A stretch of DNA of 64,000 nucleotides from a virus, in IMG/VR virus record IMGVR_UViG_3300009068_000028, positions 1-64,000 of that record, one strand, 5' to 3'. The translations under genes and the position numbers were made by a program. This document shows positions 54,783 through 63,054 of the stretch, one piece after another (within the stretch, counting starts at the first letter, position 1; each line of letters begins with the position of its first letter). The notes below the pieces were generated by a model, which was given only the letters and a program-made list of their open reading frames with translations, searched no databases and was not told where the DNA came from.

Positions 54783-54993
54783 CTCTCTAGAACAAATGGA
54801 GACCATTGTAGAAAACAATAAGTCTCTTCTCTGGGATGGTTGGAATGTAAAAGAAATTACGCCATCACCAACTGGATGGACAAAGCCAAGCGGCATGTTC
54901 CGTAATAACGAGTGGTTCATTCAGAAACACTACAATCTTAGATATGATGGTTGGGATATCCCCAATAAGTTTGTGGGGAATGATGCAAAGTGA
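54772..54993 (+). CDS. Unknown Trp-rich small protein
   Basis: This 73-residue protein has many Trp residues (LLWDGWNVKEI, PTGWTKPSGMF, RNNEWFIQKH, YDGWDIP). Both ends overlap neighbours (deaminase, WhiB). Similar short proteins are seen in actinophages but have no known role. Confidence 0.5.
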   Translation: MKINSLEQMETIVENNKSLLWDGWNVKEITPSPTGWTKPSGMFRNNEWFIQKHYNLRYDGWDIPNKFVGNDAK

Positions 54994-55267
54994 AGAATGG
55001 AAAAAACAAGCACGATGCGAAGGTTACGACACAAACCTATTCTTCGACAAATATGAAGAAGATCTTGACCTCAGAGTGGGGATAGACAATCTTTGTGCAG
55101 GGTGTCCTGTTGCAAGACTATGTTTTGCTACTGGAGTTTCTCAAAAAGCTTGGGGAGTCTGGGGTGGGGTATATCTTGAAAACGGAAAGATCTCACGAGA
55201 ATTCAATAAACACAGGTCAAAGGCTGATTGGGCTGAGACCTGGCAATCTTTAGTAACGGATAGATAA
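54980..55267 (+). CDS. WhiB-family transcription factor
   Basis: This 95-residue protein has the four WhiB cysteines: Cys13 (ARCEGYD), Cys39 and Cys42 (LCAGCPVARLC) and Cys48, which hold a 4Fe-4S cluster, and the GVWGG turn at residues 59-63. A basic end follows (REFNKHRSKADW). WhiB proteins act on the main sigma factor and occur only in Actinobacteria and their phages; phage members such as the one of TM4 alter host gene expression and exclusion. The start overlaps the preceding gene; ATG 54980 or 54983 are equal choices. Confidence 0.92.
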   Translation: MMQSEEWKKQARCEGYDTNLFFDKYEEDLDLRVGIDNLCAGCPVARLCFATGVSQKAWGVWGGVYLENGKISREFNKHRSKADWAETWQSLVTDR

Positions 55268-56380: not shown

Positions 56381-56407
56381 GTGGGCTATTTCGGTAGCCC
56401 ACTTTTT
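56381..56407 (+). terminator. Intrinsic terminator after the holin-like gene
   Basis: GTGGGCTA (56381-56388) pairs perfectly with TAGCCCAC (56395-56402) around TTTCGG, followed by TTTTT. It lies at the convergent end of the minus-strand glycosyltransferase operon. Confidence 0.92.
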
Positions 56408-57440
56408 ATTGCCCTAAAATATTTAAGTATCTAGACTTTAATACACTTGGTGAAAAAGAGTTATAGCCAATATTAAATGCACGTTGCTTTTCAATATTTT
56501 TGTCAGACATTGCTACATAGTAGTCAATATTTTCTGCAAGCTTTTGTGCATTAACATCATAACAAATAACAGGAGTAGCCAGTCTGATTACTCCAAGTTC
56601 TTCAGAAACAGTCAGCCATTCTTTTGGAAGAATCAAGTTGTTTGGAGAAACGTCTGTCATAAAAACTGGTAAACCACTAAGCAAGGCTTCATTCATAGGC
56701 AAGCACAAGCCAGCATATCTTCTAGGTAGAATCATACCATCAAAGCCAGTGTACATATCTTGTCTATGTTTTACATTATCAATCTCAACAGTGATGCGTG
56801 AGTCTAATCTTTTAGTGTTGATTGGTGTTTGACTCTTGACTACTAACTCAAAATCTGCCTTAGAGTGTCGCATCATTTCAAAAATACTCTCTGTTCCATT
56901 ACGATCATTTGCAGCAGCCTTACCAGCAATGTGTAGCATACGCTTATGATCTTTAGACATATTTGTTTCTAGTGCTTTTTCAAATAACTCTGGTCTTGTT
57001 GGTGGAGGAATGTGATATACCTTGGCTTGGTTAAAAAATCTTTTATTAACTTTTTCAATCATCCAGGGACTTGGCGATATAAGAACATCTGCAAGAGATC
57101 TTTTATCTGCTTTTAAATTTCCAAATAGCTCGTAATTATATTGAAGATATGTTCTGACACCTTTTGACCTTGCAAGTGTGGGAGTATTGTCATTATAAAA
57201 TGTCTCACAACTTAACAAAGCATCAAGGTCTTTTAAAAAATTATTCATTTCTTCATCCGTTGGAAAACCTTTACAGATAATATAGTCACGTTCTGCATAC
57301 CACTCAAAGTGCTGTTGATTACCGTTATAAGATGTAAAATCAATAATCATAATCTTGTATGGATTTAACATTTGTGTTAGCTCATATGTCTGATTGCCAA
57401 GACCAGTATTGTCTGCTCTTACAATTATTCCTAATTTCAT
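56406..57440 (-). CDS. Glycosyltransferase-like protein (GT-B), minus-strand operon
   Basis: This 344-residue protein starts at ATG 57440, whose ATGA overlaps the upstream stop; a longer start is less likely. It begins MKLGIIVRADNTGLGNQTYE, a GT-B N-terminal pattern, and the C-terminal half has RRYAGLCLPMNEALLSGLPVF, where a Glu/Gly-rich donor-site segment like EALLSGLPV is expected. It is last in an operon of four sugar-active genes. The donor and acceptor are unknown. Confidence 0.72.
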   Translation of the reverse strand: MKLGIIVRADNTGLGNQTYELTQMLNPYKIMIIDFTSYNGNQQHFEWYAERDYIICKGFPTDEEMNNFLKDLDALLSCETFYNDNTPTLARSKGVRTYLQYNYELFGNLKADKRSLADVLISPSPWMIEKVNKRFFNQAKVYHIPPPTRPELFEKALETNMSKDHKRMLHIAGKAAANDRNGTESIFEMMRHSKADFELVVKSQTPINTKRLDSRITVEIDNVKHRQDMYTGFDGMILPRRYAGLCLPMNEALLSGLPVFMTDVSPNNLILPKEWLTVSEELGVIRLATPVICYDVNAQKLAENIDYYVAMSDKNIEKQRAFNIGYNSFSPSVLKSRYLNILGQ

Positions 57441-58198
57441 GCCTCTGTAAGTCCCCAAGCTTCATCATCATCAGTAAACTTTTTTAAATGTCTGCGTCCA
57501 TCTAAATTGTTTACAACTCTAATGTCATCTTTGTTTTGTGGATTGTACAACCACAGCCTGTGCTCCATCCAACCTGTATCACTATCCTTGCAATCTGATA
57601 AAAGTTTTCCATAATACTTATCTTCAATAAAAAGTTTGGGGGTAGTATTAGGTAGCACCATATTTCGATAATACCAGACGTGAGAGAAATGCGGTTGCTG
57701 ACTCCACTGGTAGCATTTGAGAAAGTCTCCTTCTTGCTCTTTCATAAGATACATATGGTCTGGCTCAACTACTTTATTAAATGTATAAAATCTAACTGTG
57801 TATGCTTTTTCAGAATCAAGCATATCCATTATTTCTTGCCAGTTAATATTTAAGTTATCTTGTAAAGCAATATCACCTTCAATGTAAAACATTATTGATG
57901 TTTTAATAAGATCAATTGTTTTTTGCATCATTGTTGATTGATGGCTATGTTCATCAAAAATAATTGGTAAAACATTATGCCATTCATGTAGACACTTCCA
58001 AAGAATTCTATTTTTATATTCGTCATACATTTCTTTACGATGATTCTGTTCTCCCCTAAGACCATCAACTTGTAGAATAATTTCATTGTCTGGAAAGTAT
58101 TGTCTTACACTTCTAATTACTTCATCAATAATTTCGGTACTAGGGTGTAGTGGACTAACTGATGTTGGAATAACTATAGTTACGTCTTTAATATGCAT
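57437..58198 (-). CDS. Glycosyltransferase-like protein (GT-A), minus-strand operon
   Basis: This 253-residue protein has a GT2-like beginning, VTIVIPTSVSPLHPSTEIID, then IILQVDGLRG and a FYIEGDIAL segment in the place of the DxD metal site. The end is rich in charged residues (RRHLKKFTDDDEAW). It overlaps both neighbours in the operon, so it is co-translated with them. Confidence 0.65.
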   Translation of the reverse strand: MHIKDVTIVIPTSVSPLHPSTEIIDEVIRSVRQYFPDNEIILQVDGLRGEQNHRKEMYDEYKNRILWKCLHEWHNVLPIIFDEHSHQSTMMQKTIDLIKTSIMFYIEGDIALQDNLNINWQEIMDMLDSEKAYTVRFYTFNKVVEPDHMYLMKEQEGDFLKCYQWSQQPHFSHVWYYRNMVLPNTTPKLFIEDKYYGKLLSDCKDSDTGWMEHRLWLYNPQNKDDIRVVNNLDGRRHLKKFTDDDEAWGLTEA

Positions 58199-59033
58199 TT
58201 ATTTGCTCCATAATCTTATATGCAAAATCCCTCTTCTGCTTAATCCACCAAGAGACTGCCCTGTGCATATTTGCTGGATAGTCTTCTAACAATTGTTGGA
58301 CTAACACTCGAAGTTTATTCCAATCACTTATCTGACTTACTGGCATATCCGTAAACAATGTTTCCCAAAAACCGTAGGCTTCTCCAACACTACTTATCTT
58401 GTCAGCAATCGGTAGAGCCAACATTTCTAATCCTTCGTAAAATCTAAAAGAATCAATTGTAGCGTTGCCAGCAGGGGCAGGAGCAAACCTAGCAGAAGCC
58501 AATAGATTGTAGTAGTCTTTTGGTGTCTCACCCTGTGTAAAGCCTTCTGTAAACTTATAGACTGTGTTTGAAAGTTTCTTTAGGGCTTGTGCAAGCTCTT
58601 TCCTACGTGGGTGAGTTATCTGACCAGCAAAGTAAATATCTGTTGTTTTTGTTGGATAATCTGGAATAACATTGTTTTTGTGGTTTGGAGTTCCAAGCGG
58701 CAACTTGTTGTATGACGAATGACGAGGGTAGGGAGATTGAATCCAAATTTCAACATTAGGGTGAGAGATCTTTTCAACACCAAACACACCAAGCTCGTCT
58801 GCTGTAACAAACAACACAAGCCTTCTAATGTTAGATAAACTTTTATTTAAAGTTTCTTCGAGACCAGTCCACTCAAAACCAGGAATAACAACAAATGCTC
58901 TGTCTGTTTTTGGTAGTTTGTTTACTTTAACAACATCAACACGGTTTCTTGTAAAGGCTTCTTGCAAAAATCCAAAGTCCCACTTATCATCTGGAAATCC
59001 TTTTCCTTTTGGAGTAAAAGAATAAGCTATCAA
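58188..59033 (-). CDS. Glycosyltransferase-like protein, minus-strand operon
   Basis: This 281-residue protein has features of a GT-B enzyme: PNHKNNVIPDYPTKTTDIYF followed by AGQITHPRRKELAQALKKLS and SARFAPAPAGNATIDSFRFY with EGLEMLALPI in the donor region. I place the start at a TTG at 59033, overlapping the upstream TGA, as the upstream ATG (59066) lies in the preceding coding region. The start is uncertain. It shares the exostosin-like text (fearful of lost sites) with surface polysaccharide enzymes. Confidence 0.6.
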   Translation of the reverse strand: MIAYSFTPKGKGFPDDKWDFGFLQEAFTRNRVDVVKVNKLPKTDRAFVVIPGFEWTGLEETLNKSLSNIRRLVLFVTADELGVFGVEKISHPNVEIWIQSPYPRHSSYNKLPLGTPNHKNNVIPDYPTKTTDIYFAGQITHPRRKELAQALKKLSNTVYKFTEGFTQGETPKDYYNLLASARFAPAPAGNATIDSFRFYEGLEMLALPIADKISSVGEAYGFWETLFTDMPVSQISDWNKLRVLVQQLLEDYPANMHRAVSWWIKQKRDFAYKIMEQINAY

Positions 59034-59986
59034 TTTATTCCAAGTTCCTTTAAGATTGTTGCCCATCTATGCTTGTATGTGTGTTCATTCTTTGCACGTT
59101 CGTGTCCAGCAAACCTAATTGCTTCTCGTTCTTCGTTGTGTTCAATATAATAATCAATTTTTTCTTTTAAATCCCTAATGTTTCCGTGTTCATAGAACAC
59201 AATCTCTTTCTTGTTTTCAAAAAAAGTATCAAGCCCTAGAATGTTTGGGTAGATTGTAAATCCTGCACGACCAGTAGACTCAAACAATCTGTCCGAAGAG
59301 TAGTAAGGATAGTTAAAGTTAATGTTGAGCGTATCTCCAATTGCAATTTTACTACGAGCATAGATACGATTTAAATCGTTACCCCTTACAACACCTGTAT
59401 CTCCATCTCCACCAACGTGAAGAAATCTTTTGCCATAAAGTTCTCTTAAAGCAGTTACAAGTCTTGGGCGGTATGGGTATTCAGGATGATAGTTCTTGCT
59501 ACCAACAAAGATAACATCATAATCAAACGTGCCGTTATAGTCTGGGTGAACATAACACTCAGGACCGAAGACTCCAGCAGGAAGGAAGTGACCTTTAACC
59601 TTAGTATTCTCGTTAAACCAATCAGCCATTAATTTATCAGTGGCAAAGAAGTGACCGATGTTTTTATAGAAAGGATCATTCTCAAGATCGTGCTGACGCT
59701 TAAGACCAAACCATAGGTCTAAGTGATAGGTCATAGTTGGTACATTAGAATCTTTAAGTTCCTGAAGAATATCTATTCTTTCTTGACCAGGCGTATTCCA
59801 TCCGTGAGTATGAACCCAAACAAAAAGGTCTGAGGTAACCGCCTCACGAAGAACCTTCCCAATGGTTGTTCCTCGTCCTTCTTGAAACTTAACTACGGTA
59901 TGACCTAATGCTTCTAAAGATTTTGCGTGATGATTCTCACTGCTAAAATCTACCTGGAAGTTTCCAAGAAATGTAATCTTTGCCAA
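59030..59986 (-). CDS. Glycosyltransferase family 1-like protein, first gene of minus-strand operon
   Basis: This 318-residue protein starts at TTG 59986 with AGAGG upstream. The C-terminal half matches the Glyco_trans_1_2 type: YDVIFVGSKNYHPEYPYRPR, KIAIGDTLNINF and SDRLFESTGRAGFTIYPNIL. The N-terminal half has WVHTHGWNTPG and MTYHLDLWFG. Similar genes in phages and bacteria use nucleotide sugars. It leads the operon and is divergent from the candidate small RNA. Confidence 0.72.
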   Translation of the reverse strand: MAKITFLGNFQVDFSSENHHAKSLEALGHTVVKFQEGRGTTIGKVLREAVTSDLFVWVHTHGWNTPGQERIDILQELKDSNVPTMTYHLDLWFGLKRQHDLENDPFYKNIGHFFATDKLMADWFNENTKVKGHFLPAGVFGPECYVHPDYNGTFDYDVIFVGSKNYHPEYPYRPRLVTALRELYGKRFLHVGGDGDTGVVRGNDLNRIYARSKIAIGDTLNINFNYPYYSSDRLFESTGRAGFTIYPNILGLDTFFENKKEIVFYEHGNIRDLKEKIDYYIEHNEEREAIRFAGHERAKNEHTYKHRWATILKELGIN

Positions 59987-60029: not shown

Positions 60030-60035
60030 TATACT
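60030..60035 (+). promoter_or_regulatory. Possible promoter -10 of the candidate small RNA
   Basis: TATACT ends 6 bases before the first base of the closing stem at 60042, where transcription would begin. No good -35 is seen, so promoter strength is uncertain. Confidence 0.45.
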
Positions 60036-60041
60036 ATAAGT

Positions 60042-60133
60042 GTCCCTCACACTATCTTAGGATGGATTAGTTACCCAAATGATAAGACCGTGGCTAACTG
60101 CAGCGGATTTCGGTGTGAGGGACTCTATTTTTT
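60042..60133 (+). ncRNA. Candidate structured small RNA with kissing loops
   Basis: The ends form a perfect 11-pair stem, GTCCCTCACAC (60042-60052) with GTGTGAGGGAC (60113-60123), followed by TCTATTTTTT. Within it a hairpin can form from TCTTA (60055-60059) with TAAGA (60083-60087) plus TGG/CCA (63-65 with 75-77 of the 60000s), and another from CCGT (60088-60091) with GCGG (60103-60106). The loops can kiss: AGTTA (60069-60073) with TAACT (60095-60099). Three helices on one junction with a loop-loop contact and a U-tract look like an independent RNA or a riboswitch-like element. Pairings are read by eye; no known family is recognised. Confidence 0.6.
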
Positions 60134-60134
60134 A

Positions 60135-60143
60135 TGGTATAAT
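60135..60143 (+). promoter_or_regulatory. Extended -10 promoter, leaderless
   Basis: TGGTATAAT follows the U-tract of the candidate RNA and ends 6 bases before the ATG at 60150, so the gene does not depend on read-through. Confidence 0.7.
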
Positions 60144-60149
60144 ATTTGT

Positions 60150-61277
60150 ATGCCATATAGCGTTGGAGAAAAAGGGTCTTACGGTTGCTCAGGTTACCCA
60201 GCCGTTAAAGACGACGGAACAGTAATGGGATGCCATAAGACAGCTGAAGAAGCTGCTAATCAAATTTATGCCATCAATGTCAGTGAGGGCAACATCGATC
60301 CAAAGTCTGGACATTCTGGAATGAGCGATGAAGAAGAACGTATGAAGCGTCGTGAAAGAATGTACAAAGCTGATATTAAAGAAGGCGACTACGTAATGGG
60401 AATGACTGTAGAAGGAATGGCTCACGGAAGAGTAGAACACATTATGCTAGAAGGTGGAACTCTTGGGGAGCCTGGAACAGCATACGCACTTGAGTCTATG
60501 CCACCAGAGAACCCAGCAATGTCCGTAAGAGTTTATGAAGAGGGTGAAGACGGAATGTGGGAAGCAACTGCCTATAGCATTGGAATGATGTATCAAGATG
60601 CTACACGTCTTGACGATTTACAAGGACACCACATGGAAGACGAAGAAAATGATTATCAAATGGATATGATGGCTAAGGCTGAAACATATTCTCCAACAGA
60701 AGGAATGAAGTCTGCTGCTCGTCGTGCTCTTAAATGGAAAGCTGAAGGCAAGGCTACAGGTGCAGGAACTCCAGTCGGATGGGGAAGAGCATCAGATATC
60801 GTAGCAGGAAGAGCTATGTCTCTTAGTGTAGTTAAGCGTATGTATTCTTTCTTCTCACGTCACGAAGTAGACAAGAAAGGCAAAGACTTTAATAACACTG
60901 CTAACCCTAGCAATGGTCGCATTATGTGGGATGCTTGGGGTGGAGATGCAGGATTTTCCTGGTCACGTGGCATTGCCGAGCGTATGAAGGATAAAGCTTT
61001 GTTTGCTAATTTTGGTAAAGACTATACAAAGTCTAAGCCAGTAGATCTATTTAAAGCAATTGGTGTTGGCTCTATGGTTAGTTGGAATTCTTCTGGCGGT
61101 AGAGCAACAGGTAAGATTACTAGAATTATTCGTAATGGATCTTACAATGTTCCAGGCACAGATGTTACAATCAATGGTACTCCAGATAATCCTGCTGCAG
61201 TAATCACTCTATACCGTGACGGTAAGCCAACAGACACAATTGTTTCACACAGAATGAACACTCTTAGAGCCTCCTAG
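60150..61277 (+). CDS. Modular protein with phage head-associated and Tudor-like domains
   Basis: This 375-residue protein has several parts. Residues 1-45 read GEKGSYGCSGYPAVKDDGTV then MGCHKTAEEAANQIYAINVSE, a short domain often joined to capsid maturation proteases in actinophages. An acidic Met-rich middle follows. Residues about 180-275 (SPTEGMKSAARRALKWKAEG, then SFFSRHEVDKKG and AWGGDAGFSWS) match a domain seen beside phage portal and protease genes. The end (GSMVSWNSSGGRATGKITRI) resembles the HVA1/DUF2945 Tudor-like fold. It lies far from the head genes. Its own role is unknown. Confidence 0.65.
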   Translation: MPYSVGEKGSYGCSGYPAVKDDGTVMGCHKTAEEAANQIYAINVSEGNIDPKSGHSGMSDEEERMKRRERMYKADIKEGDYVMGMTVEGMAHGRVEHIMLEGGTLGEPGTAYALESMPPENPAMSVRVYEEGEDGMWEATAYSIGMMYQDATRLDDLQGHHMEDEENDYQMDMMAKAETYSPTEGMKSAARRALKWKAEGKATGAGTPVGWGRASDIVAGRAMSLSVVKRMYSFFSRHEVDKKGKDFNNTANPSNGRIMWDAWGGDAGFSWSRGIAERMKDKALFANFGKDYTKSKPVDLFKAIGVGSMVSWNSSGGRATGKITRIIRNGSYNVPGTDVTINGTPDNPAAVITLYRDGKPTDTIVSHRMNTLRAS

Positions 61278-62298: not shown

Positions 62299-62370
62299 GC
62301 CCTTGTAGCTCAGAGGAAGAGCAGCAGGTTTCTACCCTGCGTGTCGCTGGTTCGATTCCAGTCAGGGGTT
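62299..62370 (+). tRNA. tRNA-Arg (TCT)
   Basis: The cloverleaf has acceptor GCCCTTG/CAGGGGT (two G-T), D stem GCTC/GAGC, anticodon stem GCAGG/CCTGC with loop TTTCTAC and anticodon TCT at 62331-62333, and T stem GCTGG/CCAGT around TTCGATT. It reads AGA. It follows tRNA-Ile after one base, and its 3' end overlaps the stop of the minus-strand gene by 9 bases. Confidence 0.92.
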
Positions 62371-63054
62371 CTCGTATTGCGAAGGATCTGGAAACATATC
62401 CTTTAAGATAAAATCAAGTATAAAGTCAAAGTTTGAGTCGTGACTAGATATGTAGTTTAGGTCTTCTTTAATGAGGTCGTGGAACTTACCCTTTAATTCT
62501 GTATTACTATATACTTTCACATCGTAAGTCTTTGTGCCACCTACATTATAAACATTTCCATATGTTGATCTATGCAGTGTTTTATGATTTAATACTTCAA
62601 GAAGCTTTGCCTTGTTCATAGGCATAGGAACATGTAGTTCGTAATCTAAAGTATTTGCAATACCCATTCTATTTAAATAGTTTTGTGTCTTGCTAAACAG
62701 TCTTTGATATCCATAATTGGTTTGTCCTGTGTCTGAATAAGATGCAAGAACTTCTTGGATTGTTCCAGAATAAAAGTATTCAACCTTATCTAATTTTTTT
62801 ACAGTAAAAAAGTCATCATTCATTAAAACAAAATCATCACTTATATCCTCTGTTGCACAGATAACATCTAATTGTTTCCAGACGTTAGGATGTCCTATAC
62901 CAGTTTGTTGTACATAAATATAATCTCCTGTATACCAGTCTGGCTTGCCACCGACTACCCAGATACGACCTTCTGGTAAATTTTTCACGGTAGATCTAAT
63001 TGAGTATCTTAACTCTTCATTGTCTCCAGGACGGCAAACATAAACGTAATCCAT
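62362..63054 (-). CDS. Stealth-like hexose-phosphate transferase
   Basis: This 230-residue protein begins MDYVYVCRPGDNEELRYSIR then GRIWVVGGKPDWY, close to the first conserved region of Stealth proteins, and DDFVLMNDDFF matches the second. HVPMPMNKAKLLEVL and HKTLHRSTYGN fit the third. Stealth enzymes transfer hexose-1-phosphate to surface polymers and help pathogens hide. Here it would be a further glycan enzyme. Its end overlaps the tRNA-Arg gene on the other strand. Confidence 0.8.
   Translation of the reverse strand: MDYVYVCRPGDNEELRYSIRSTVKNLPEGRIWVVGGKPDWYTGDYIYVQQTGIGHPNVWKQLDVICATEDISDDFVLMNDDFFTVKKLDKVEYFYSGTIQEVLASYSDTGQTNYGYQRLFSKTQNYLNRMGIANTLDYELHVPMPMNKAKLLEVLNHKTLHRSTYGNVYNVGGTKTYDVKVYSNTELKGKFHDLIKEDLNYISSHDSNFDFILDFILKDMFPDPSQYENP

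Follow-up and report, generated by a model that had tools for sequence, protein, structure and literature searches.

Phages have known ways of taking control of host translation, using proteins, tRNAs and the cleavage of rRNA or mRNA; an RNA of phage origin that pairs with large-subunit rRNA is not known to us, and none was reported in the open-access papers searched. The helices H69, H70 and H71 of 23S rRNA face the 30S subunit, and the rRNA targets of archaeal and eukaryotic guide RNAs of the box C/D and H/ACA types include H69. The actinobacterial toxins MazF-mt6 and MazF-mt3 cut the sequence UUCCU in H70, MazF-mt6 cleaving it in the free 50S subunit and not in the 70S ribosome, and a single mutation in the stretch cut by MazF-mt6 abolishes 50S-30S association (PMC5408214). 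Subunit separation exposes H69 (PMC4289901), and mutations in H69 impair translation or 70S formation (PMC1190176). The most conserved stretches of the phage RNA described here are complementary to this region at the subunit boundary; gripping or controlling the host ribosome through an RNA is thus suggested as a strategy of the virus.

The predicted RNA resembles the trans-acting antisense small RNAs known from bacteria and phages in having its own promoter, an intrinsic terminator and short complementary seeds, but its predicted target is 23S rRNA and not an mRNA, and a single core matching the target is carried by many scaffolds. The two types of guide RNA are likewise structured and present short antisense blocks against rRNA, whereas the phage RNA shows no C/D or H/ACA boxes, would leave 6 target bases unpaired and originates from a bacterial virus. 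MazF-mt6 and MazF-mt3 act in the same H70 region, and on free 50S only, as shown for MazF-mt6 (PMC5408214); these are cutting proteins, in contrast to an RNA that would pair.

The window analyzed here is the whole stretch of 64,000 nucleotides at the start of IMG/VR virus record IMGVR_UViG_3300009068_000028. The predicted transcript occupies positions 60042..60133 of its plus strand and reads GTCCCTCACAC ... GTGTGAGGGAC followed by TCTATTTTTT. Both the perfect 11-pair closing stem P1 (60042..60052 with 60113..60123) and the U-tract described in the first-pass annotation are present, the latter, TCTATTTTTT (60124..60133), lying directly 3' of P1 and forming a putative intrinsic terminator together with it, and a -10 box TATACT (60030..60035) is located six bases upstream of the first stem base. 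The minimum free energy (MFE) of the element is -32.6 kcal/mol; 200 dinucleotide shuffles gave -19.8 +/- 3.05 (z = -4.2), one of them being as good. The element is flanked by a minus-strand glycosyltransferase gene (59030-59986) and, outside the RNA on the plus strand, by an apparently leaderless gene with a Hva1_TUDOR domain (60150..61277), which does have its own promoter, as had been noted, with a -10 box TATAAT (60138..60143) six bases ahead of its ATG at 60150.

Start-proximal -10 boxes of this kind, 5-8 bases before the start codon, were seen at several window genes (60138-60150, 14216, 29924, 50303, 54944 and 61536), about threefold over background, a pattern expected of leaderless messages. 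The minus strand carries a glycosyltransferase-like gene cluster and a Stealth-like protein (56406-59986 and 62362-63054). A gene for a WhiB-family regulator (54944-55267) indicates an actinobacterial host.

Near-identical copies of the element were found with an exact pattern on six IMG/VR contigs, where the neighbouring genes partly differ, glycosyltransferase, ferritin-like and Hva1_TUDOR genes being found beside one copy or another. Diverged homologues were gathered from the loci of two nearby protein families and with a pattern for the core; the family is at least as large as given here. A covariance model built from 15 homologues returned 62 matches at E<=1, a few of which are reverse-strand shadows of real hits. 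The covariance search proposed in the first-pass annotation as a check led to a family alignment of 78 homologues (E<=0.05, within a chosen IMG/VR set), and against Rfam the element has no match at gathering thresholds and sub-threshold hits at E<=10, none of which is credible. Rfam searches with another subfamily (gathering and E<=10) and with the other scaffolds described below (gathering) gave tRNAs or sub-threshold hits only, and a pattern search of genome contigs gave 4 chance matches, all lacking the motif context.

In the 78-member alignment all 13 model pairs of P1 vary on both sides and 96.9% of cells are paired, which 0 of 500 shuffles equalled, and the covariation of the whole structure is 0.45 vs. 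0.21 +/- 0.01 in shuffles, with slid versions all far lower; this alignment was fitted to the structure and is hence biased towards it, P1 still being visible by eye in unaligned sequences. P1 has 11-15 pairs. In 74 of the 78 homologues a -10 box (no more than one mismatch) is found whose end lies 5-7 bases upstream of the start, vs. 3% of random positions, and exactly six bases separate the box from the first G in 61. Because this spacing is fixed, the transcript appears to begin at P1, in agreement with the start that had been assigned from TATACT. Most homologues have 3-6 T among the 8 bases 3' of P1 and some have only 1-2. As the U-tract is weak in some members (L014, L137, L147, L149), termination does not seem to be the sole reason for the maintenance of P1. 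One subfamily (L044, L111, L127, L128, L142, L145, L181, L200, L225, L241 and kin) has an additional conserved GGGCAAGG 3' of the P1 5' strand and GGUU ahead of the P1 3' strand. Judged by sequence comparison, the element is a real RNA family, and the independent small RNA that the first-pass annotation had favoured is well supported as a prediction by the promoter, the U-tract end and the covarying P1, together with its absence from Rfam.

Purine riboswitches (RF00167), to which it had been likened, resemble it in that a closing stem and two inner hairpins can be drawn, but there is no shared core, and no purine riboswitch hit was obtained in Rfam at gathering or at E<=10. In the window, inner hairpin P2 (60055..60059 with 60083..60087, by MFE and family alignment) is clade-specific and overlaps the conserved core, and P3 (60088..60106, by MFE) has a variable loop. 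P2 (TCTTA/TAAGA) is weakly kept, with 69.3% of cells paired among the 78 homologues, and the base pairs of P3 shift from one homologue to another. The sequences of the proposed kissing loops, AGTTA (60069-60073) and TAACT (60095-60099), are both present in the window; conservation of the contact did not hold up, TAACT being found 3' of the core in only 4 of the 78 homologues. Of the compensatory changes proposed as a check on all three helices and the loop-loop pairing, those in P1 were found, and with the first alignment RNAalifold predicted the closing stem alone with confidence. The second hairpin, ACC/GGU, was considered as a family feature and dropped. Nor does the element have the context of a cis-regulator of purine genes, its neighbours being as varied as described above.

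Conservation in the family resides in CUUAGGAUGnnnUAGUUACC and a second block. The core, CUUAGGAUG-n(2-4)-UAGUUACC, is nearly invariant, although the pattern used to search for it imposes part of this conservation, and is represented in the window by block A, CUUAGGAUGGAUUAGUUACC (60056..60075). The looser second block, 3' of the core, is UUCGUGC-nn-GAAUUUC in many members and UGCAG-n-GGAUUUCG in the window clade, the window copy (block B, 60099..60112) being degenerate compared to these fuller relatives. A minigene similar to lambda bar (ATG-GAY-TAG) was considered within the core and rejected, as GGATGATTAG, GGATGAGTAG and other sequences of relatives break it.

At least five further scaffolds, which may share ancestry and otherwise show no obvious resemblance in sequence to the window type, carry the same core: T1 and T2 (tRNA-array types), T3 (a terminator type with a strong terminal hairpin), T4 and a Streptomyces phage RNA. 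The T1 (L169, L171, L174, L195, L240, L245, L252, L261) and T2 (L206, L211, L214, L222, L256) elements, which are unannotated and have the core CUUAGGAUGnnUAGUUACC, are located next to or inside phage tRNA clusters. A blastn search from T3 gave 132 matching records, 126 of which are Streptomyces phages, and the RNA is present but unannotated in about 120 cultured Streptomyces phages (Stanwilliamsviridae), sited after the endolysin gene. Its parts are a -10 box, two hairpins, CUUAGGAUGnnUUAUAAUUACC and a terminator; the loop of the first hairpin is invariant, and that of the second contains UUCGUGC or CAUUCGUGC. The invariant hairpin is CUAUGGAAAUGAGUCCG in L280-L292 (Francob, StarPlatinum, LilMartin, Wakanda and others). 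The terminase of the window phage is about 52% identical to that of these phages.

What the first-pass annotation missed is that the sequence recurring in these seemingly unrelated scaffolds is complementary to 23S rRNA. With E. coli 23S rRNA as reference, which may differ from that of the actual host at the target positions, CUUAGGA (60056-60062) is complementary to 1923-1929 and UAGUUAC (60068-60074) to 1910-1916, block A leaving the 6 bases 1917-1922 unpaired between its halves. In block B, which is weak in the window copy, UGCAG (60099-60103) is complementary to 1962-1966 and AUUUCG (60107-60112) to 1934-1939. These targets flank the hairpin H71 at the 50S subunit interface, in a 76-base stretch of 23S rRNA that is at least 92% identical in sampled plasmid records from many phyla. 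The complementarity comes in short, interrupted pieces (5-12 bases), and the UG of the core is conserved, yet only its U could wobble-pair with 23S rRNA.

The 23S hypothesis was formed after inspection of the sequences. When all 12-base windows of 23S rRNA were scanned, the complement of 1961-1972, which adjoins the targets of block A, ranked first among the antisense windows (0.83 vs. a mean of 0.17, sd 0.10). The 16S antisense control reached 0.49 at best and the 23S sense control 0.70, the top sense window being the promoter motif TATAATG. The best 23S duplex site is at the core target for 7 of 7 core variants, with duplex energies better than those of most, not all, shuffled cores. After masking of the core, the upstream or downstream flanks have their best antisense match at 1928-2011 in about half of the T2, T3 and T4 members; for one flank of L211, L214 and L222 (T2), L188, L191 and L224 (T3) and L221 (T4) the best place in the whole 23S rRNA is within 1918-2011. 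Chained antisense alignment with the core included placed 18 of 18 T3/Streptomyces RNAs at, or overlapping, positions ~1906-2042, with scores of 17.7-27.1 vs. shuffled means of 16-20 and lower scores for 16S rRNA; seven scored above all 200 shuffles, and L284 and L287 of the Streptomyces members are singly not significant. For 72 of the 78 window-type RNAs the best place in all of 23S rRNA is 1905-1980, much of this contributed by block A, while block B alone has its best match at the target site in 23 of 60 members. Antisense 8-mer counts pooled across members are dominated by one subfamily and therefore uninformative. On the strength of these comparisons we consider the complementarity to one rRNA site to be above controls.

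The T3/Streptomyces RNAs are collinear with the 23S complement, skipping a piece that includes H71, and the window type has the permuted order, A then B. Read as block B then A, the window-type RNAs align better to the 23S site than in their native order in 78 of 78 cases, the gain being 4.33 vs. 1.54 with shuffled block B. Judging from the coordinates, the 3' end of block B and the 5' end of block A would adjoin on the rRNA (~1929-1935) with P1 placed there, and this meeting of the ends at P1 would explain both the permuted order and the fact that P1 always closes the molecule.

We somewhat favour a model in which a small phage RNA with its own promoter and terminator pairs by two blocks with host 23S rRNA and hinders the 50S subunit or sets it aside. 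Transcription would start from the -10 promoter at 60042 and be ended by P1 and the U-tract, and the RNA would offer two single-stranded or weakly paired blocks to the large subunit, block A pairing with the H69 loop (1910-1916) and 1923-1929, and block B with the strands flanking H71 (~1934-1942 and 1961-1972). That the RNA base-pairs with 23S rRNA is probable. Since the target sites become accessible only on separation of the subunits, it would most likely bind free or newly made 50S subunits, and once bound it might hinder their joining to 30S or reserve them for the phage. Interference with subunit joining as the main effect is plausible, if slightly short of an even chance; physical binding, this effect and a benefit to the phage are all inferred.

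One possible alternative is that the core and block B fold compactly into a binding site for a protein, of the phage or the host, or for some other ligand; the likeness to the 23S rRNA complement would then be coincidental or a remnant of how the RNA arose. In the core, GGAUG-nnn-UAGUUACC, fixed flanks enclose a centre of variable length, as in hairpins with non-canonical pairs, the hairpin of the Streptomyces RNA is invariant, and the UG is conserved despite its poor pairing. We nevertheless consider this rather unlikely, because one core occurs in scaffolds of differing architecture and permuted order, and because the second block falls beside the target of the first in the controlled scan of the whole 23S rRNA. 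Pairing with 23S rRNA might also serve to shield H69-H70, e.g. from MazF-type toxins released during abortive infection, or to direct how rRNA is folded or modified. In members that have it, the full block B (GAAUUUC) would cover 1935-1941 in H70 and overlap UUCCU, and 1917-1922 would be left unpaired between the halves of block A; however, the window copy covers 1934-1939 only and the gap is unlike that of a box H/ACA guide, being 6 bases and not 2, with no conserved 3' ACA. RUGAUGA and CUGA, as in C/D guides, are absent from the conserved columns of the alignment. Such a role has, in our view, a slim chance.

Action in cis as a riboswitch or attenuator of the downstream gene would fit the position of the window element upstream of a gene and the terminator at its end, but it is very improbable given that near-identical copies have different neighbouring genes, that a P1 of 11-15 pairs needs no ligand, that the following gene in many cases carries a -10 box of its own and that T1 and T2 are found next to or inside tRNA clusters. 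The first-pass annotation also allowed for a DNA element, such as a recombination or packaging site, based on the inverted repeat that P1 constitutes. Copies do occur in different gene contexts, as such a site might; the -10 box, kept at a fixed spacing from the stem in nearly all homologues (74 of 78), and the asymmetry of the conserved interior make this extremely improbable.

If pairing with the 50S subunit is the function, possible gains for the phage are host shut-off, storage of ribosomes, shielding from rRNA-cutting toxins and preference for its own messages. It is possible, though less likely than not, that these RNAs, with their many scaffolds and permuted orders, are a class that evolved to pair with H69-H71 and thereby governs how host 70S ribosomes assemble or what state they are in. 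Such a class may favour phage genes that look leaderless, which are able to start on undissociated 70S ribosomes. The RNA is carried by viruses of freshwater and soil actinobacteria, and its presence in about 120 cultured Streptomyces phages makes direct testing possible. It would provide a natural RNA that recognizes the 50S interface, which is also a site for drugs, toxins and recycling factors.
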